A stretch of DNA of 26,004 bases from a virus, in IMG/VR virus record IMGVR_UViG_3300025652_000469, positions 1 through 26,004 of that record; one strand, given 5' to 3'. Both the position numbers and the translations under genes were made by a program. Under the pieces are notes generated by a model. It worked only from the letters and a program-made list of their open reading frames with translations. It searched no databases and was not told the DNA's origin. Shown piece by piece: positions 1-22,678 of the stretch. Position 1 is the first letter of the stretch; the number at the start of each line of letters is the position of its first letter.

Positions 1-244
1 TTCCTGTCGTATGCTGTGATGTAACTTTACTTCCTATAGCCTCACAAAGTTCAGGAGAACGATAGCCAGAGGTAATAATTACAGGCTTATTATCAAACTT
101 TACTTTTAATCTTTCTAATATTTCATAACAAAGATCAGTAAGGTTTTTAATTTCTCCACTACCAGCTTTGTTTTTAATACCAAGCCTAATTGCAGTAGAG
201 GACTTTTCAAATTCTTCTAACTTAAAGTGTTTGGATAATTGCAT
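1..244 (-). CDS. Peptidase M15A-type endolysin, N-terminal part (cut by window edge)
   Basis: Eighty-one codons are visible, starting MQLSKHFKLEEFEKSSTAIR. The layout matches the phage M15 (D-Ala-D-Ala carboxypeptidase-like) endolysins: an LSKHF.LEEF opening, a helical stretch ending in LERLKV, the strand VIITSGYRSPEL, and then SQHTTG, the beginning of the SxHxxGxAxD zinc site. The histidine in SQH is the expected first zinc ligand; the Asp and second His lie beyond the window. Such enzymes cut peptide cross-links in peptidoglycan at lysis. A GAGG ribosome binding site lies 6 nt before the ATG. The gene follows the tail-fibre chaperone by 8 nt, at the end of the late operon. The holin-like gene is about 20 kb away. 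The family assignment is firm; catalytic completeness cannot be judged. Confidence 0.85.
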   Translation of the reverse strand, partial: MQLSKHFKLEEFEKSSTAIRLGIKNKAGSGEIKNLTDLCYEILERLKVKFDNKPVIITSGYRSPELCEAIGSKVTSQHTTG

Positions 245-16158: not shown

Positions 16159-17394
16159 TTATTTCATTGTCCATCTTCTCGGAGAACTAAATACTGTCTG
16201 TGTAGTCAATGGTTTTAAATAATCAATCATATAACCTAGTGCGTCATTCATATGGTCGAATCCATCTTCCTTATCAGGAATATTTGTATTCTCTTTGTAT
16301 ATCTGTCTTTGTAAACCTTTTATCAGGGTTTTGCAAGATTGTGAAACAAAAATATGTCTGACTCCATTAGAATCTTTTAATCTGCTATTCACAGCATTGA
16401 CCCTATCTCGAATTGCTGGGTGTCTATTTTTAACTTTAACTTTGAAACCAGCATTTTGTAAAATAGATAAGTCAGTTCTCCCACCAGCACTTGTCTTTCT
16501 TTGTTTAGAAGCTGGGTCAGGATATATAAAGATTGGTATTTTAGTACCATATCTATCTCTTAATTCTTGCACCATCTCGTCTGTATTACTTCCATAAATA
16601 ATAACTTCATCTACAAAATAAACTTTATCTTGCTCTAATTGTGCAACACAAGCTGACATTGGGTCTACGTTAAAGTCCATTCCTATATGTAAAGGTTTCT
16701 CCCAATCAATCTGTCGTTTAACTACATTATCTACAGGGTGGAAGTTATAATAAACAGAACCAGCATAGTTCTCAAATGTACCCTCAAACTCTTGTCTAAA
16801 AGTTCTAATATCTATGTCTTGTTTAGCTTGTTCTATTTCCTCTGCTGACACCATACCACCTTCAACAGTAGTATATTGGTAGCTATCCCATTCTTCGTCT
16901 TGCTTTCCTTTAAGATATAATTCATATGACCAATTACCATATCCCTTTGGTGTTCCACAGAATAAAACTTTACCAAGTGTATCAGCAACAGAAGCACGTA
17001 ATACTTCATACCATGCTCGTTTATCTATATCTGCAAACTCGTCTAATATAAGAAAATTTAATCCACTACCTCTTAACCCATCATAATTATCAGCACCCTT
17101 TAATGAGATTGTACTATTAGATTTCCTAATCGTAATAGTCATAGTAGTTTCGTTAATATCGTCTATCCAGTTAAACTGATTAAGCATCTCTTTTAGATTA
17201 GCCCATACGATCTCTTTAGCCATTTTAAATGTGGGTGCTATGTACCAGATTTTTTGATTAGGTTTTGTTGCGTACTTCATCATCTCGGTAATACATAGAT
17301 AGGTCTTACCAAATCTACGACCACTTATAAGAACTCTAAACCTTGATTGACTTGTAGATACTTTAAGTTGGGGTTTTGTCAGAGATATTTTCAT
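16159..17394 (-). CDS. terL: Terminase large subunit
   Basis: A protein of 411 aa. ATPase domain: Walker A GRRFGKT at 25-31, with the Arg-rich form usual in terminases; Walker B LNFLILDEFA at 112-121 with catalytic D118/E119; coupling motif FCGTPKG at 145-151. Nuclease domain: GMDFN with D240, YPDPAS with D293, and a C-terminal DHMNDALGY (D379, D384), the three acidic positions of the RNase H-like fold. It cuts and pumps DNA into proheads through the portal. The ATG overlaps the upstream 73-codon gene by 32 nt and lacks a clear Shine-Dalgarno, so coupling is likely. The small terminase subunit is unusually distant, about 3.7 kb upstream. Confidence 0.95.
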   Translation of the reverse strand: MKISLTKPQLKVSTSQSRFRVLISGRRFGKTYLCITEMMKYATKPNQKIWYIAPTFKMAKEIVWANLKEMLNQFNWIDDINETTMTITIRKSNSTISLKGADNYDGLRGSGLNFLILDEFADIDKRAWYEVLRASVADTLGKVLFCGTPKGYGNWSYELYLKGKQDEEWDSYQYTTVEGGMVSAEEIEQAKQDIDIRTFRQEFEGTFENYAGSVYYNFHPVDNVVKRQIDWEKPLHIGMDFNVDPMSACVAQLEQDKVYFVDEVIIYGSNTDEMVQELRDRYGTKIPIFIYPDPASKQRKTSAGGRTDLSILQNAGFKVKVKNRHPAIRDRVNAVNSRLKDSNGVRHIFVSQSCKTLIKGLQRQIYKENTNIPDKEDGFDHMNDALGYMIDYLKPLTTQTVFSSPRRWTMK

Positions 17395-17584
17395 TGCAGA
17401 AATAAGTGATATAGAGTTTATCCTTATTTATTTTTTCTTCCATTTTAATTGTATATTCAATAGTTAATTGACTACCACCTATAACACATTCAGACCATGT
17501 ATTAAACTTTACAGGAACTAAAGATGTACTATTACAAAAGCCTGTGATTGCAGAGCAGATACTAAAGGCTAATACATAGTGCAT
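17363..17584 (-). CDS. Small Cys-containing, possibly exported protein
   Basis: A protein of 73 aa with a hydrophobic start, MHYVLAFSICSAITGFCNST, and four Cys (10, 17, 33, 63). The motif F.ICSAI.G.C....P..FNTW.EC resembles small uncharacterised proteins of marine phages (from memory). The N-terminus is too short and lacks a clear cleavage site for a confident signal peptide, but the paired Cys suggest oxidation outside the cytoplasm. It is coupled to the upstream gene by TAATG and overlaps terL by 32 nt. Possibly part of the exported cassette described in the findings. Confidence 0.6.
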   Translation of the reverse strand: MHYVLAFSICSAITGFCNSTSLVPVKFNTWSECVIGGSQLTIEYTIKMEEKINKDKLYITYFCNENISDKTPT

Positions 17585-17889
17585 TATTGAAGTGGGTTTT
17601 TGTTGCTTTCTTTAATCTCGGATATTTCTAATTTTAATACTTCAATTTCTTTTTGCAATATAGCAATTTCTTTTTCTGCATTAGCTTTAATGTCTGCAAT
17701 ATCTTTTGAGTTATCTAATATAGCAAATCCATTTGTTTCTATACCAGATAAGTCAGGTGCAGTAGCATTAGATAGTTGCTCAATAGTAGATTCCATATTT
17801 GCAAACTTTGTAAACCCAGCACCAATAGATGCAATTAATCCTAGCACTACAACTATGTTTGTTAGATTGTCTTGTATTTTTTTAACCAT
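17584..17889 (-). CDS. Membrane-anchored coiled-coil protein
   Basis: A protein of 101 aa. The N-terminus MVKKIQDNLTNIVVVLGLIA and SIGAGFTKF forms a single membrane span (about 10-27) after a basic head. From about residue 58 to 95 there is a coiled coil (DIADIKANAEKEIAILQKEI, EVLKLEISEIKES). This N-in, C-out layout is like i-spanins or holin-like accessory proteins, but no partner lipoprotein with a clear lipobox was found. The first 8 nt overlap the end of the large exported protein gene. A role in lysis or membrane association is inferred only. Confidence 0.6.
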   Translation of the reverse strand: MVKKIQDNLTNIVVVLGLIASIGAGFTKFANMESTIEQLSNATAPDLSGIETNGFAILDNSKDIADIKANAEKEIAILQKEIEVLKLEISEIKESNKNPLQ

Positions 17890-19216
17890 TTTTTAACTCC
17901 TGTAATTCTAAAAGTAATAGTCTTTTTTTAGACTTAATTTCATTTAGTTTTTTAATCTTGATTTCCATTATATCATTATCAGTATATTTAACTAAATCAA
18001 CATTAGCATATATAGACCTATTATCAAATATCTCTATCTGATTCAAATAAATATCTTTAGGCTTATAAAACTCGGTATTATTATACTCTAATAATGAAGC
18101 CTGATCGTTCTGCATAGCATCTAATTTAATAATGTTTTTAATAGTTAAATTCTTTGCACTATCTTTTACTTGTGCGTCTACCTTATCCATAATCTTGTCT
18201 ATTTTAGGTTTCTTGCTTTTCTTACTTGCTACCTTTGTTTTAACTTCTTTTTTAGGTGTTTCTTCTGTAGTTTCCTTTGGTGCTTCCTCAATAACTTCTT
18301 CTTCTTTAGTTTCTTCTGGCATTTCCTCTTTAGCTTCTTTAATAATTTCTTCAGTTATAATTTCTTCCTCTGGTTTTTCTTCTATAATTTCTTCTACAAC
18401 TTCTGGCTTTTCTTCCATTATTTCAGGCTCTTTTTCAGGCATAGATATTATCTCTATAAGTTCTTCAATCTCTAATTCTTCTTCCATTGGTGGTGCTTGT
18501 ACTATTTTAAATTCTTCTTCAAACTTAAATTCTTGTTTAAATTCTACTTCTTGAAATATCTCCTCTTGCAACTCCTCAAATATGTTTTCTATTTCCTCTA
18601 TAAGTTCGTTAGATAAAACTTCATTATCATAAGTCATAGTAACAACTATATTATCTACATTTGCCCCACCTAGATTAGATGGTGCGTTAGCGTCAGTTCC
18701 AGCAATATTAAGATTACCTAAATTAGAATCTACTCCATTATATGTAAGTGAATCTGTAAAGTTAGCACCATTGATATTAGTTACATCAGTTCTAATCTTT
18801 GTGCTTGTGGCTAATACATTACCATCTGAATCTTTAATCTTTAATGTAACTGTAAATGAATCTGCATTACCTCTACCACCCCAACAACCAGCAACACCAC
18901 ATTCTCCATTTTGAACTTCTACTGTGCTATTTAATGTAATACCATTATCTAACATAGCTTGTGATATGGTTTCTGTTGTTAAATTAAACTGCTGTTCTAT
19001 TGAGCCACTATCTCCAAACTCTAAATCATAATTACTAGCTACATTGTTTAATGTGCAGCAATCACTTAATACTTGGACATCTCCATTAGTAGTCCAACCA
19101 TTAGCATTTCCTGTTTCAAAATTATTATTAATGATTAGGTTATTTGTTGTTATTTCTTCTGCTAAAGTTATATGGGTTAAGAGCATTAGCCCACTTATTA
19201 GAGAGATAATTCGCAT
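17882..19216 (-). CDS. Large exported protein: beta-rich domain plus Glu-rich stalk
   Basis: A protein of 444 aa. A signal peptide (1-19, ending THITLA before EE) is clear. A beta-rich domain follows (about 25-200): NLIINNNFETGNANGWTTNG, SNYDLEFGDSGSIEQQF and a C-x4-C pair (C106, C111, in GECGVAGCWGG), plus adjacent C53/C54. The NNF..GN..GW opening is typical of carbohydrate-binding jelly-roll domains. Residues 204-322 are mainly Glu with Lys, Pro and Ile, then a Lys-rich patch (323-346) and a helical C-terminus. The ATG at 19216 has AGGA 7 nt upstream; a TTG two codons earlier is less likely. The beta domain resembles unnamed marine phage proteins. It may act in the periplasm or on the cell surface. 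Confidence 0.7.
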   Translation of the reverse strand: MRIISLISGLMLLTHITLAEEITTNNLIINNNFETGNANGWTTNGDVQVLSDCCTLNNVASNYDLEFGDSGSIEQQFNLTTETISQAMLDNGITLNSTVEVQNGECGVAGCWGGRGNADSFTVTLKIKDSDGNVLATSTKIRTDVTNINGANFTDSLTYNGVDSNLGNLNIAGTDANAPSNLGGANVDNIVVTMTYDNEVLSNELIEEIENIFEELQEEIFQEVEFKQEFKFEEEFKIVQAPPMEEELEIEELIEIISMPEKEPEIMEEKPEVVEEIIEEKPEEEIITEEIIKEAKEEMPEETKEEEVIEEAPKETTEETPKKEVKTKVASKKSKKPKIDKIMDKVDAQVKDSAKNLTIKNIIKLDAMQNDQASLLEYNNTEFYKPKDIYLNQIEIFDNRSIYANVDLVKYTDNDIMEIKIKKLNEIKSKKRLLLLELQELKNG

Positions 19217-19253
19217 AAGCAAATCCTATTATTAATGTTATTATCCAAATCAT
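19140..19253 (-). CDS. 37-residue membrane miniprotein overlapping the exported protein gene
   Basis: A protein of 37 aa. It starts MIWIITLIIGFAYANYL, giving one short membrane span, followed by a polar, basic tail (NPYNFSRRNNNK). Its ATG overlaps the TAA of the preceding gene (TAATG) with GGAAA just upstream, and its last 77 nt lie in another frame over the start of the exported protein. The membrane span and coupling both argue for real translation, but it may only be a leader that delivers ribosomes to the next gene. No family recognised. Confidence 0.45.
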   Translation of the reverse strand: MIWIITLIIGFAYANYLSNKWANALNPYNFSRRNNNK

Positions 19254-19438
19254 TATTTCCTTACTGAATCTATGAAATTATAGACTCTACCAAATTGTTT
19301 ATCGATACTTATTAAATCTTGCTGTATCATATTAACTAAAATTTGTAATTCCAATAATGTAACTAAAGTCCATGTTGCTAAACCCATTAAAATTGTACCT
19401 AATAAGCCTATTAACATTGTATTAGTTTTTCTCGTCAT
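19253..19438 (-). CDS. Small membrane protein
   Basis: A protein of 61 aa, MTRKTNTMLIGLLGTILMGL then ATWTLVTLLELQILVNMIQQ and a polar C-terminus (DKQFGRVYNFIDSVRK). One long membrane span (about 8-30), possibly with an amphipathic second helix. The ATG overlaps the TGA of the Cys-containing exported protein gene (ATGA), and its own TAA overlaps the next ATG. The size and topology could suit a holin or antiholin, but the two-span protein at 20745-20945 is a better holin candidate. Confidence 0.6.
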   Translation of the reverse strand: MTRKTNTMLIGLLGTILMGLATWTLVTLLELQILVNMIQQDLISIDKQFGRVYNFIDSVRK

Positions 19439-20058
19439 CTAGTATGTAGTTTTAATTTTTTAGCTTCTTCTTTGTTAATCTTCTTATCTATTACTTCTCT
19501 TTTTTTAATTCTTTTTACATAAGTCTTGTAATCTGGTCTTTCAAATTCATATTTATTCCATATTGCTAAAGCGTCTTTACCTATCTTGCCATCTACAGGA
19601 CAAGGTGTACCAGCGTTAATCATTGCTTCAAATACTCGTTCATCTTGACACAATAAAGCCACACTTCCTACTTTCATACCAAAGTCATACAATACTTTTG
19701 CTAATTTAATTCTTTCACAGTTCATATCTCTATTAGTCTTACCACCAGAAAAGCCTGTACCAAATGTCTGAATACCTACTGATACTCCTGTTGCACAAAC
19801 GTCTTGCGATTGAGCAGAGAATGATGGTGCTGAAGCAGTATAAGGTGCTGATTTAACATTAGAATGATTAGTAGAGTTTGATGTAGTATTTGATGATGAG
19901 CCTGATTGGTAAGTTGTACTAGATTCTGAAGTATATCCACCCTCGATAGATGTATTAGAGCCAGATGTATTTGTTTGTGTACTGTCAGGATATGCTGGTT
20001 TAACAAGGCATAATAAACAAAATAAAACAATCAATACTCCTGTAAAATAATAGTTCAT
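19435..20058 (-). CDS. Exported Ser/Thr-rich protein with conserved Cys domain
   Basis: A protein of 207 aa from the ATG at 20058, which has GAGGA 8 nt upstream; an ATG five codons earlier lacks a ribosome binding site. A signal peptide (1-24, FTGVLIVLFCLLCLVKPAYP) is followed by a Ser/Thr/Asn-rich linker (25-80) and a compact domain: DVCATGVSVGIQTFGTGFSG, NCERIKLAKVLYDFGMKV, LLCQDERVFEAMINAGTPCP, with Cys at 88, 114, 137 and 153, enough for two disulfides. I recognise this domain as common in marine phages and without a known function. The C-terminus is very basic. It lies in the exported cassette between terS and terL. A role in envelope modification or lysis is speculation. Confidence 0.7.
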   Translation of the reverse strand: MNYYFTGVLIVLFCLLCLVKPAYPDSTQTNTSGSNTSIEGGYTSESSTTYQSGSSSNTTSNSTNHSNVKSAPYTASAPSFSAQSQDVCATGVSVGIQTFGTGFSGGKTNRDMNCERIKLAKVLYDFGMKVGSVALLCQDERVFEAMINAGTPCPVDGKIGKDALAIWNKYEFERPDYKTYVKRIKKREVIDKKINKEEAKKLKLHTR

Positions 20059-20076
20059 ATTTGTTATCCTCATAAA

Positions 20077-20349
20077 TTAAATTTTAAATCCTTTTTTCCA
20101 TGATTGAATAGCCCAATAAGCTGGGCTTAAATTCTTCTGGCCTTTAACTTTGGCCAAGATAGGTCTGAATCTTGCAAAGAAACTCTTTTGCCTAGCTGGA
20201 ATATTCTTCTTGATAGACATAGTCTTAGAGCCAAAATTAACCTTCTTAACTCTGCCTGATGATTTATCTTTTACAAAGACTTTAAACTTCTTAACATCTC
20301 CACGAGATGGTTTATTAAGTTTAACAGTTCTGTTTTTATATTTAGCCAT
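20077..20349 (-). CDS. Small basic protein, DUF5872-like
   Basis: A protein of 90 aa with a very basic composition. The middle has KKFKVFVKDKSSGRVKKVNF followed by GSKTMSIKKNIPARQKSFFA, which resembles the conserved KVnFGdpnM.IkrdnPaRRKSFrARh segment of the DUF5872 group of phage proteins (recalled, not searched). The usual C-terminal Cys are missing and the end is AYWAIQSWKKGFKI. It is probably a nucleic-acid or capsid-associated protein, but the function is unknown. No clear Shine-Dalgarno; the 52 nt upstream are nearly pure A/T and could contain a promoter for the cassette below. Confidence 0.6.
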   Translation of the reverse strand: MAKYKNRTVKLNKPSRGDVKKFKVFVKDKSSGRVKKVNFGSKTMSIKKNIPARQKSFFARFRPILAKVKGQKNLSPAYWAIQSWKKGFKI

Positions 20350-20401
20350 ATGGCATAAATATCACATATGGATTAATTAATAAATTAAAATAATGTTAGT
20401 T

Positions 20402-20569
20402 CTATTCTTGTTTATTTTCTATTAACTTTCTTTGTTCTTTTATTACTTCTAATGCTTTGTTTAATTTTCTTAAAGCTACATCTCTTTGAATCCTTGCTTG
20501 ATCGCACTCTGATCTAGCTTGATCTCTTTGTTGTCTTAATTTTAAAAAAGTATTCTCTCCAATGTTCAT
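20402..20569 (-). CDS. 55-residue coiled-coil protein
   Basis: A protein of 55 aa, MNIGENTFLKLRQQRDQARS then a continuous charged helix (CDQARIQRDVALRKLNKALE) to the end. It has a strong Shine-Dalgarno (AGGGAGA, about 5 nt before the ATG) and follows the next upstream gene by 11 nt. One Cys is present. Nothing identifies a family. The 52 nt after its stop, before the basic-protein gene, have no ORF and are AT-rich. Confidence 0.6.
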   Translation of the reverse strand: MNIGENTFLKLRQQRDQARSECDQARIQRDVALRKLNKALEVIKEQRKLIENKQE

Positions 20570-20580
20570 ATTATCTCCCT

Positions 20581-20748
20581 TTATTTGTTAGCTTTTTTAC
20601 CTTTGTTTATACCTTCTTTTATTACATATCCTAGTGTTCCATTAGCACCTATCTGAACTTCTTTTTTAAGATTCTTAAATAGCATCATCTCTTGAATCTT
20701 TTTCCAATGTTTTTTTAAATAGGATTCTATAACTTTATTATCTCTCAT
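20581..20748 (-). CDS. 55-residue basic protein
   Basis: A protein of 55 aa, MRDNKVIESYLKKHWKKIQE then a VQIGANGTLGYVIKEGINKG segment and a Lys-rich end. Short helix-strand-helix character, no membrane span. Its ATG overlaps the TGA of the holin-like gene (ATGA), so the frame is well supported by coupling even though there is no known family. Confidence 0.6.
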   Translation of the reverse strand: MRDNKVIESYLKKHWKKIQEMMLFKNLKKEVQIGANGTLGYVIKEGINKGKKANK

Positions 20749-20945
20749 TTGTTGCCACCAATATAACCACCAATAACACCAATTAATCCTGTAACTGACA
20801 TCTTCATTAGGGTTATGACACTCTCATCTACTGGTCTATTTTCTTCTAATGCTACCCAATAATCGCCTACAATAATAACACCAAGAAGTATTAAGACACC
20901 ACTTGTTATCAATAGAATTACAATGTCTTTAAAGTTTTTAATCAT
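20745..20945 (-). CDS. Holin-like small membrane protein with two spans
   Basis: A protein of 66 aa. Span 1 is about residues 8-28 (DIVILLITSGVLILLGVIIV), then a polar, acidic loop (ALEENRPVDESV), and span 2 is about 48-64 (MSVTGLIGVIGGYIGG). Size, two hydrophobic helices and Gly-rich second span fit class II-type holins or other phage membrane proteins found in marine phages. If it is the holin, it would open the inner membrane for the endolysin encoded at the left edge. It starts in an ATGA overlap with the small basic gene and ends in one with the next. Confidence 0.55.
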   Translation of the reverse strand: MIKNFKDIVILLITSGVLILLGVIIVGDYWVALEENRPVDESVITLMKMSVTGLIGVIGGYIGGNK

Positions 20946-21076
20946 CTTCCTTGTCCTTTATACCTTGTTAGTTTCTTATTTCTTTTCTCGCTTTTATTCA
21001 AAGTCTTTTTATGACGTTGAGGTCTTTTGGGTGGTTTATCACGAGGTGTATATAATGAGAAATTCTGTTTAGCCAT
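20942..21076 (-). CDS. Small very basic protein
   Basis: A protein of 44 aa, MAKQNFSLYTPRDKPPKRPQ then RHKKTLNKSEKRNKKLTRYK and GQGR. About two-fifths of residues are Lys or Arg. This kind of short F.LYtPRD.P.KRPrRHKK protein occurs near terminase genes in marine phages (from memory). It probably binds nucleic acid. The start overlaps the terS stop (TAATG) and the stop overlaps the holin-like start (ATGA), which together support the frame. Confidence 0.6.
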   Translation of the reverse strand: MAKQNFSLYTPRDKPPKRPQRHKKTLNKSEKRNKKLTRYKGQGR

Positions 21077-21441
21077 TATACATCTTCTACTTTAGCATCT
21101 ATAATTAATGGTAAAGGCTCATTAGTAGTTTCTGTTTGAGTTCTATCTTTCATACCTAGATAGTTTTTACTTAACCATATCTGCATATGAGTATTATCTT
21201 TCTTAACTGCCTTATCCCACATCTTCTTTCTTAGACTAGCTTTACCCTTTTCCCTGAACTGATCTATAATATCTGCATAATTTCTTCTTAATGTTTTAGC
21301 TGATATATTCATTACACTAGCTATCTCATAGTCAGGACACCCAATAGAAGCTAAGTTCTTTAAGATTTCTGTATCTATATAGATTTTAGGTCTTCCAGCA
21401 CCTTGCCTTTTTTCTGTTGTATTTGCCTTAATTTTGTCCAT
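21076..21441 (-). CDS. terS: Terminase small subunit
   Basis: A protein of 121 aa. The first part QGAGRPKIYIDTEILKNLAS is followed by a helix-turn-helix (CPDYEIASVMNISAKTLRRN) that suits recognition of packaging DNA, then an oligomerisation helix (GKASLRKKMWDKAVKKDNTH) and MQIWLSKNYLGMKDR, which is the typical terS end M.IWL.KN.LG..D. By family, it forms a ring that loads TerL on the genome. The order terS, many small genes, terL is unusual; terL starts about 3.7 kb downstream. The gene overlaps the methyltransferase gene by 14 nt and has only a weak ribosome binding site. Confidence 0.8.
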   Translation of the reverse strand: MDKIKANTTEKRQGAGRPKIYIDTEILKNLASIGCPDYEIASVMNISAKTLRRNYADIIDQFREKGKASLRKKMWDKAVKKDNTHMQIWLSKNYLGMKDRTQTETTNEPLPLIIDAKVEDV

Positions 21442-22678
21442 TTTCTACTTTTGCTTTTAAACTTGTAAATTCTTGCATTGCATTTTCCAATTCTGCTTTT
21501 AAGCCTGTAAATTGTTCCCATCTTTTAACTATTACATCACAATATTTAGGGTCTAATTCCATAACTCTTGCTTTACGATTTAGTTTCTCACAAGCTATTA
21601 AAGTGCTTCCTGATCCACCAAAACAATCTATAATTATATCTTCATTTTTACTAGAATTTTCTACTGCTTTGCATATTAATTCTACAGGTTTTTGAGTTGG
21701 GTGTACATATTTAGAAGTTGCACCTCTACTCATTTGCCATACGTCTGATTGAGATTTATCTCCATACCATTGTTCTCCACAATAAAATATAAATTCATGT
21801 TGTGGTCTATAATGACTTTGTCCTAAACCAATAGATTTTTTATCCCAGACTACACAGTTTTTTATTTTATAACCAGCATCAGTTATAGCTTTATAAAACT
21901 CAGTATAAGTTCTCCAAGTAAAACATATATAAGCAGAGCAACCCTGTTTAGCTTTTATTAAAGATGTACTTAAACTATCCCTAACCAAAGATATTAAAGC
22001 ATCATCTCTTAAATCATCATTTTTAATCATTCCATGTGCTTTTACTAACGCACCTTTTTCAGTACTACCTTCGGCTCTTCCTCCACCATAAGACATTCCA
22101 TAAGGAGGATCGGTAAAAATCATATCAGCTTGTTCAGTACATAGTTTATCAAAATTATCTATTAGAGTACTATCCCCACACATAAGTCTATGATTACCAA
22201 GTTTCCAAATATCTCCTAGTTTAGTTATAGGGTCTTCAGGTAGTTCAGGAACTGCATCTTCATCAGTTAAACCTTCTTTCTCCTCGAATAACATATTATT
22301 TAGTTGATCTTCGTTAAATCCAGTAAGTTCTAAATTAAAATCTTTTAAATCTAATTCTTTTAATTCCATTTTAAGTAACTCATTATCCCACTCGGATTCT
22401 TCGCTAGTTCTATTATCAGCTATTCTATATGCGTTTATTTGTTCAGGTGTAAGATTGTCAGCAATAGTAATTGGTACTTCTTTAAACCCTAATTTTTTAG
22501 AGGCTCTAAACCTAGTATGTCCTACAACAATAATTCTATCTTTATCAACTACGATAGGTTGTCTAAATCCATATTCTTTTAATGACATAGCAACAGTTTC
22601 TATTGCTTTTTCTGATAATTTTCTGGGGTTGTTCTCATAAGGTTTTATAGTATTTATATCTGCGATCTCAATTTTCAT
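21428..22678 (-). CDS. ParB-domain DNA methyltransferase (beta-class, probably N6-adenine)
   Basis: A protein of 416 aa with two domains. Residues 1-90 are ParB/sulfiredoxin-like: IKPYENNPRKLSEKAIETVA, then GHTRFRAS (53-60, the GxxRxxA box). Residues 155-395 form the methyltransferase: motif IV DPPY at 190-193 (TDPPYGMSYGGG), HPTQKPVEL at 326-334 and the SAM-binding FGGSGSTL at 353-360. Motif IV before motif I indicates the beta class, and DPPY indicates N6-adenine rather than cytosine. A C-terminal coiled coil follows. No partner endonuclease is adjacent. Likely roles are protection from host restriction or regulation. Such fusions are common in phages. Overlap ATGA with the upstream gene. 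Confidence 0.88.
   Translation of the reverse strand: MKIEIADINTIKPYENNPRKLSEKAIETVAMSLKEYGFRQPIVVDKDRIIVVGHTRFRASKKLGFKEVPITIADNLTPEQINAYRIADNRTSEESEWDNELLKMELKELDLKDFNLELTGFNEDQLNNMLFEEKEGLTDEDAVPELPEDPITKLGDIWKLGNHRLMCGDSTLIDNFDKLCTEQADMIFTDPPYGMSYGGGRAEGSTEKGALVKAHGMIKNDDLRDDALISLVRDSLSTSLIKAKQGCSAYICFTWRTYTEFYKAITDAGYKIKNCVVWDKKSIGLGQSHYRPQHEFIFYCGEQWYGDKSQSDVWQMSRGATSKYVHPTQKPVELICKAVENSSKNEDIIIDCFGGSGSTLIACEKLNRKARVMELDPKYCDVIVKRWEQFTGLKAELENAMQEFTSLKAKVENGQN

Follow-up and report, generated by a model that had tools for sequence, protein, structure and literature searches.

An exported gene module with an exchangeable lectin-like head, shared by unrelated marine phages and possibly serving a spanin-like lysis step

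In phage T7 the genes are ordered holin-TerS-Rz/Rz1-TerL, that is, the spanin genes sit between those for the small and large terminase subunits (TerS and TerL). A spanin is not universal: by the figures of Kongari et al. (2018; PMC6139136), 91 of 677 phages of Gram-negative hosts (~13%) have none, and other routes of outer-membrane disruption are left open. In marine phages, a "putative carbohydrate binding domain containing protein" is the most frequent nameable gene of metaviromic islands, where it has been filed as "host recognition" (PMC3909814), and the curli CsgGF genes of marine myophages (Melnitz, HTVC008M) have been proposed to act in lysis control (PMC9004378). It is not settled how phages breach the outer membrane of SAR11, whose members count among the ocean's most abundant bacteria. 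Here we analyze a viral DNA of 26,004 nucleotides (IMG/VR record IMGVR_UViG_3300025652_000469, positions 1 to 26,004; hereafter the window), in which genes for exported and membrane-anchored proteins, named p212, p61, p444 and p101 after their length in residues, lie between terS and terL. A first-pass annotation had read the genes in this interval as resembling a discrete envelope or lysis module.

It is well supported that p212-(p61)-p444-p101, with p61 optional, constitutes a conserved module that unrelated marine phages carry as a unit. Across 63 non-redundant p444 loci, p212 precedes p444 in 58 of 60 and p101 follows it in 52 of 53, counts that gauge order and co-occurrence rather than prevalence of the module, since the loci were fetched with p444 or p212 seeds. 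In the set seeded with terL, p212, p444 and p101 are all present or all absent together, and the searches seeded with p444 or p212 recover the same order in phages that lack a terL of the HTVC026P type. Rather than occurring independently and scattered, the three core genes thus keep their order in unrelated phages, and the proposal of a discrete envelope module holds for p212-(p61)-p444-p101, but not for the remaining genes between the terminases.

Named carriers of this order comprise HTVC202P, Baldr, HTVC033P, HTVC023P, the T7-like uvMED S28-C10 and the T4-like Mosig. In Baldr the module lies directly upstream of a different TerL, and HTVC115P presents a variant gene order. The full p212-p444-p101 order is also found in contigs of metagenome-assembled genomes (MAGs) labelled Maricaulis and SAR86. 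p444 is missing from the Roseobacter phages CRP-810 and CRP-207, in which genes resembling p212 and p101 stand on either side of another gene; such a pair likewise brackets a gene other than p444 in marine MAG contigs labelled Porticoccaceae, Bacteroidetes and Rhodobacteraceae. Several of these MAG contigs look like phage sequence, although this is not proven. In one contig of our set (L132 and L162, IMGVR_UViG_2228664050_000002) a second, inverted p444-p101-p73-terL was noted, which is probably an assembly artefact.

The window can be assigned to a pelagiphage of the HTVC026P type, with Pelagibacter as host genus, because its TerL is 80-89% identical to those of the isolates HTVC202P, HTVC111P, HTVC112P and HTVC026P. 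The separation of terS from terL, borne out by their phrog_309 and phrog_2 assignments, had been regarded as unusual. The split characterizes the HTVC026P-type group as a whole rather than this phage alone: the two genes are apart in 67 of 67 complete intervals from relatives (1.3-4.5 kb). Since the spanin genes of T7 likewise stand between those for TerS and TerL, the split alone is unremarkable. The exported module is present in 35 of these 67 intervals and absent from 32, in a set that contains near-identical and module-selected loci and is therefore enriched for the module, and it is present in 18 of the 42 terL-seeded loci having at least 3 kb upstream. In this group the module fills an optional slot just upstream of p73-terL. 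When free of the module, the slot is usually occupied by phrog_20984 (one span plus a coil) and phrog_24646, the same two families that take the place of p61 between p212 and p444 in other phages. They were ruled out as a strict alternative to the module, since phrog_20984 also occurs in 9 of the 35 module intervals. T7-like pelagiphages keep p61 or phrog_20984 at the T7-equivalent position near TerS, and in HTVC011P and Gjalp p61 stands directly before maturase A (TerS). The phrog_20984 family, a single span plus coil annotated as "fibrinogen-like coiled coil" in uvMED genomes, is found in 45 phage records, 40 of them Pelagibacter (e.g. L233:5001-5363), and is itself a good candidate for an i-spanin or a lysis protein.

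The p444 protein comprises a signal peptide (residues 1-19), a beta-sandwich head (20-198), an acidic stalk rich in Glu, Pro and Lys (~199-335) and a helical C-terminal part (336-444). In the AlphaFold2 model, residues 20-198 mostly have a predicted local distance difference test score (pLDDT) near 90, the stalk is of low confidence, residues 219-336 and 369-412 fall below 50, and helices appear near the C terminus. Structure comparison of this model aligns the head with the sugar-binding Fbs1 domain (2rj2; Z=19.0 over 170 residues), with TmCBM61 (Z=14.4) and with lectin-like domains of phage tailspikes (Z=13-14.6). The head is predicted to be a jelly-roll beta-sandwich of a fold resembling lectins and carbohydrate-binding modules (CBMs), and as such a putative glycan binder, a shared fold not amounting to binding. 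Sub-threshold CBM_4_9 matches were obtained for 5 of 49 p444 relatives (best E=1.5e-4), and a PDB sequence search with p212 and p444 profiles returned nothing useful.

In four loci (L018, L021, L041 and L143) the p444 tail is 86-89% identical to that of the window and the head only 19-22%, and across 55 non-redundant loci the distances of the heads from that of the window form two sets, separated by a gap between 0.36 and 0.59. That the alternative heads are unrelated folds finds no support: an alignment of types A and B identifies them as distant homologs (hhalign 96.5%, E=1e-9). The distances of p212 correlate (Spearman) with those of the p444 tail at 0.85 and of p101 at 0.71, and with those of the intervening p444 head at 0.14; in the HTVC026P-type group the distances of p212, the parts of p444 and p101 do not track terL. 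Exchange of head alleles onto a jointly evolving frame of p212, p444 tail and p101 appears well supported as the origin of this pattern. Because head-A loci co-diverge throughout, we read the co-divergence as a sign of allele exchange and reject it as proof of physical contact.

Signal peptides and single N-terminal spans support a predicted periplasmic location for the bulk of the p212, p444, p101 and p61 products. The proposed export of p212 and p444 is upheld by alignment and hydropathy, the signals being kept across both families: in p444, A19 before E20 is nearly invariant, and in most p212 relatives an A-x-S/G/A site precedes G-STQ, the window p212 itself reading PAYP-DS. After its signal peptide, p212 has a segment rich in Ser, Thr and Asn that is conserved (QTNTSGSNT.IEGGY), and its C-terminal domain contains four conserved Cys (93, 119, 142 and 158); its AlphaFold2 model is poor (mean pLDDT 56). 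In p101 an N-terminal transmembrane segment (~9-27) is followed by a coiled-coil tail with the conserved ending ...IEEIK....NPL, of which NPL is retained in the roseophages CRP-810 and CRP-207 and in Pelagibacter phage Mosig. For p61, a transmembrane segment (~8-26), an N-in/C-out orientation by charge and a short amphipathic tail are predicted. The "lysozyme" genes CRP-810 gp51 (L226:5201-5623) and CRP-207 gp73 (L227:3292-3873) encode single-span coiled coils ending in NPL that are p101 relatives, and their annotation looks wrong.

The module probably acts on the host cell envelope late in infection. For the kind of action, one lead is the neighborhood of the module outside the HTVC026P-type group. 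There, an endolysin (M15, lysozyme or amidase) lies at most 1.5 kb downstream in 13 of 34 non-redundant loci, against a chance expectation of ~4% (an estimate from position alone, for one endolysin in a 40 kb genome), and a holin-like gene lies at most 0.8 kb upstream of p212 in 19 of 39. Five loci (L198-L200, L202 and L204) share the order holin-like - p212 - phrog_20984 - phrog_24646 - p444 - p101 - M15, and two (L169/L170) the order holin-like - p212 - p61 - p444 - p101 - lysozyme, the neighboring M15 and lysozyme assignments being supported by Pfam and PHROGs. These neighbors in other phages lend some weight to the possible lysis role proposed in the first-pass annotation. We favor, at a little short of an even chance, a late periplasmic module that carries out a non-canonical, spanin-like lysis step. 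In such a step, p101 (with p61, or phrog_20984 elsewhere) would be the inner-membrane anchor with a periplasmic coil, the exchangeable p444 head would bind an envelope glycan (peptidoglycan or lipopolysaccharide), the helical p444 tail would join p101/p212, and p212 would complete the complex. Once holin and endolysin have opened the inner membrane and the wall, the complex would destabilize or tether the outer membrane. The discrete head alleles would then reflect a ligand that varies between hosts, or exchange under selection.

By hydropathy, charge and alignment, the predicted topology of p101, with one N-terminal span and a periplasmic coil, matches the i-spanin type. A pattern-based lipobox scan of all open reading frames on both strands, which recovered its positive controls (T7 gp18.7, lambda Rz1 and Bor), detected no lipoprotein in either the window or the complete HTVC202P genome. 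In HTVC112P, one early gene looks like that of a lipoprotein. A unimolecular spanin does not fit either, there being no lipobox open reading frame and no C-terminal span in p444 or p212. The relatives of the window seem to be without a canonical spanin, yet this is not tied to the module. In the terS-terL slot of a module-free relative (L036:4048-4475), a single-span coil of 75 aa precedes a lipoprotein of 66 aa with an LAGC lipobox, likely a two-component (Rz/Rz1-like) spanin pair.

Several observations weigh against a spanin-like step. The module is optional in its own group (18 of 42) and is not beside the endolysin there: inside the HTVC026P-type group an endolysin neighbor occurs in 0 of 12 loci and a holin-like neighbor in 0 of 14, and the M15 endolysin of the window phage is found, as in HTVC202P, at the distal end of the tail genes. 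The lysis inference is therefore drawn from relatives, and the module is not essential for lysis in this group, because it is both optional and away from the endolysin. The holin-like genes are so called from their hydropathy and position; no function is assigned to phrog_2524 or phrog_6637, and the sole holin lead is one phrog_6637 member matching a holin family at E=0.0035. The profile of p101 aligns with T7 gp18.5 and lambda Rz at an hhalign probability of ~0.1% or less, a missing homology that does not exclude a spanin role since known spanins diverge widely, and matches to the Rz-like phrog_739 are weak (5 of 23 p101 members, best E=0.004) and equalled by unrelated coiled-coil families. 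The module-free HTVC010P and HTVC019P are also without a convincing lipoprotein by the same scan, which weakens lipoprotein absence as a mark of module carriers. With the comparison confined to head-A loci, the head varies with the rest (0.86). Secretion and topology were judged from hydropathy, charge and family conservation, with no dedicated predictor, and all functional steps of the module are inferred. Finally, an arms-race role would likewise be compatible with optional genes whose heads are swapped.

Such a role is the substance of the main rival, superinfection exclusion or receptor masking, in which exported p444 and p212, held by p101, would cover or bind surface glycans through the lectin head and block other phages, the alleles following the receptors of competitors. 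Although we judge it rather unlikely, it accounts for the optional presence and the swapping heads nearly as well as a spanin-like step does. Sec export, the lectin-like fold and discrete alleles that are ~20% identical yet homologous all suit it, and one p212 relative each, of 49, weakly matches superinfection-exclusion PHROGs (E=0.0037 and 0.0057). On the other hand, these matches concern single members, surface exposure is presumed, and the repeated placement between holin-like and endolysin genes suits a lysis step better.

A place for p444 in the virion, as a receptor-binding protein in line with the "host recognition" proposal of PMC3909814, is improbable. The fold does match phage tailspike domains, the gene is hypervariable, and the homolog in uvMED S28-C10 bears the annotation used for the metaviromic-island protein. 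Sec-exported proteins, however, are not normally incorporated into tails built in the cytoplasm. Because p444 has a signal peptide conserved at A19|E20 across its family and moves with a membrane-anchored partner, not with tail genes, a virion role is disfavored. We grant a similarly small chance to control of lysis timing, in which p61, p101 or phrog_20984 would regulate the holin in antiholin or pinholin-like fashion and the exported partners would sense the periplasm. The position of p61 or phrog_20984 before TerS or beside endolysins in many pelagiphages is compatible with it, and an exported lysis regulator is already known from phage T4 (RI; PMC8385771); such control leaves the long stalk and the exchangeable lectin head unexplained, and no RI-like match was found. 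That unrelated small genes have simply piled up in a permissive gap is very improbable and largely refuted for the core genes by their invariant p212-p444-p101 order in unrelated phages and by a joint divergence of p212, p444 tail and p101 that terL does not explain, but it stands for the genes near terS, where many small hypothetical genes occur and the p44-to-p90 part varies among relatives.

The features of the interval and its surroundings are collected in Table 1. Ten open reading frames (44, 66, 55, 55, 90, 212, 61, 444, 101 and 73 aa) lie between terS and terL, not the eleven first counted, and their coupling by overlaps is not general: seven of the 11 junctions overlap (by 1, 4, 4, 4, 8, 1 and 32 bases) and four have gaps (11, 52, 3 and 36 bases), non-coding sequence making up 102 of the 3,681 bases. 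Of at least six membrane or exported proteins proposed, hydropathy makes five clear (p66, p212, p61, p444 and p101), and p73, with a short hydrophobic start (19-residue maximum 1.39), is probably not one. Because p73 accompanies terL with or without the module, it is linked to terL and lies outside the module. The presence of p44, p66, p55a, p55b and p90 comes and goes among relatives; p90 is not part of the module, and p66 is by hydropathy a candidate, unproven holin.

Table 1. Features of the window in and around the terS-terL interval; every gene discussed lies on the minus strand
Feature	Position	Strand	Evidence or remark
Peptidase M15 endolysin, truncated at window edge	2-244	-	PF08291, E=8e-11
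terL, terminase large subunit	16159-17394	-	phrog_2, E=1e-47
p73, small Cys protein overlapping terL start	17363-17584	-	phrog_19893, E=3e-31
p101, N-terminal transmembrane segment and coiled coil, core of module	17584-17889	-	hydropathy, family alignment
p444, exported, lectin-like head, stalk, helical tail	17882-19216	-	ATG at 19216; in-frame TTG at 19222
p61, single-span, optional module gene	19253-19438	-	phrog_33111, E=5e-38
p212, Sec-exported, core of module	19435-20073	-	phrog_20531 (unknown function), E=7e-9; 48/49 relatives
p90, very basic cytosolic protein, net +25; conserved neighbor upstream of module	20077-20349	-	phrog_7595
p44, p55a, p55b, variable small genes after terS (p66 listed apart)	20402-21076	-	presence differs between relatives
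p66, strongly hydrophobic, probably two-span, holin-like	20745-20945	-	hydropathy; in only some relatives
terS, terminase small subunit	21076-21441	-	phrog_309, E=1.3e-9

Elsewhere in the window, three tandem paralogous proteins of 204-207 aa (567-2427) appear to be duplicated tail or receptor-binding genes, and an open reading frame just upstream of terS (21428-22678) resembles a ParB-like domain fused to a DNA methyltransferase (DPPYG motif), a relative of which lies between terS and terL in L036, L044, L050 and L113. Homologs of RTX-type lysine acyltransferases are annotated beside the tail genes of three pelagiphages (L229:11285-11734, HTVC026P gp47 and HTVC112P gp46). Rfam and tRNA searches over the window gave no matches.

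Compared with described systems, p101 resembles lambda Rz/Rz1 and T7 gp18.5/18.7 in being, by hydropathy, a small coiled coil with an N-terminal span and in its late gene position, which for the T7 pair is also between TerS and TerL. The module differs from them in its two additional Sec-exported proteins, one of them lectin-headed, and in the lack of a lipoprotein partner in the window and HTVC202P. By the lipobox scan HTVC202P would qualify as one of the spanin-less phages of Gram-negative hosts; Table 10 of PMC6139136 contains no Pelagibacter phage, nor does the section consulted mention such a module. The phage CsgGF genes (PMC9004378) are likewise an exported envelope gene set of phages of streamlined marine bacteria, but the proteins are different, CsgG being an outer-membrane pore, and no relation to the module was seen. 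With the sugar-binding jelly rolls of CBM4/9, CBM16, CBM61 and F-box-associated proteins, p444 residues 20-198 share the predicted fold (Z 13-19) at only ~15% identity, and p444 is phage-encoded and borne on a long acidic stalk. It is a doubtful but wider possibility that an inner-membrane coiled coil, an exported protein rich in Cys and a stalked glycan binder whose alleles are swapped form a lipoprotein-free envelope-disruption machine, widespread in marine phages, that replaces the spanin complex and adapts to the host envelope. A previously undescribed system had been suggested. For the parts this does not hold, given PMC3909814 and the annotation of BAQ94057, the p444 homolog of uvMED S28-C10, as a "putative carbohydrate binding domain containing protein"; for the unit as a whole, for its export and for the swapping of heads, no account was found in the open-license literature searched, where a query on pelagiphage lysis with carbohydrate binding found none and an earlier description elsewhere is possible. 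What the analysis provides is a concrete candidate of three genes, common to several pelagiphage types and related to genes of roseophages and of other marine contigs. The metaviromic-island protein shares the annotation of BAQ94057 and is, like p444, hypervariable; it has been filed as "host recognition", whereas p444 is here predicted to be Sec-exported, belongs to a module with p212 and p101, and has its head exchanged while the tail stays constant. If this hypervariable protein of marine viromes is re-filed as an exported envelope protein, the meaning of its variability changes.

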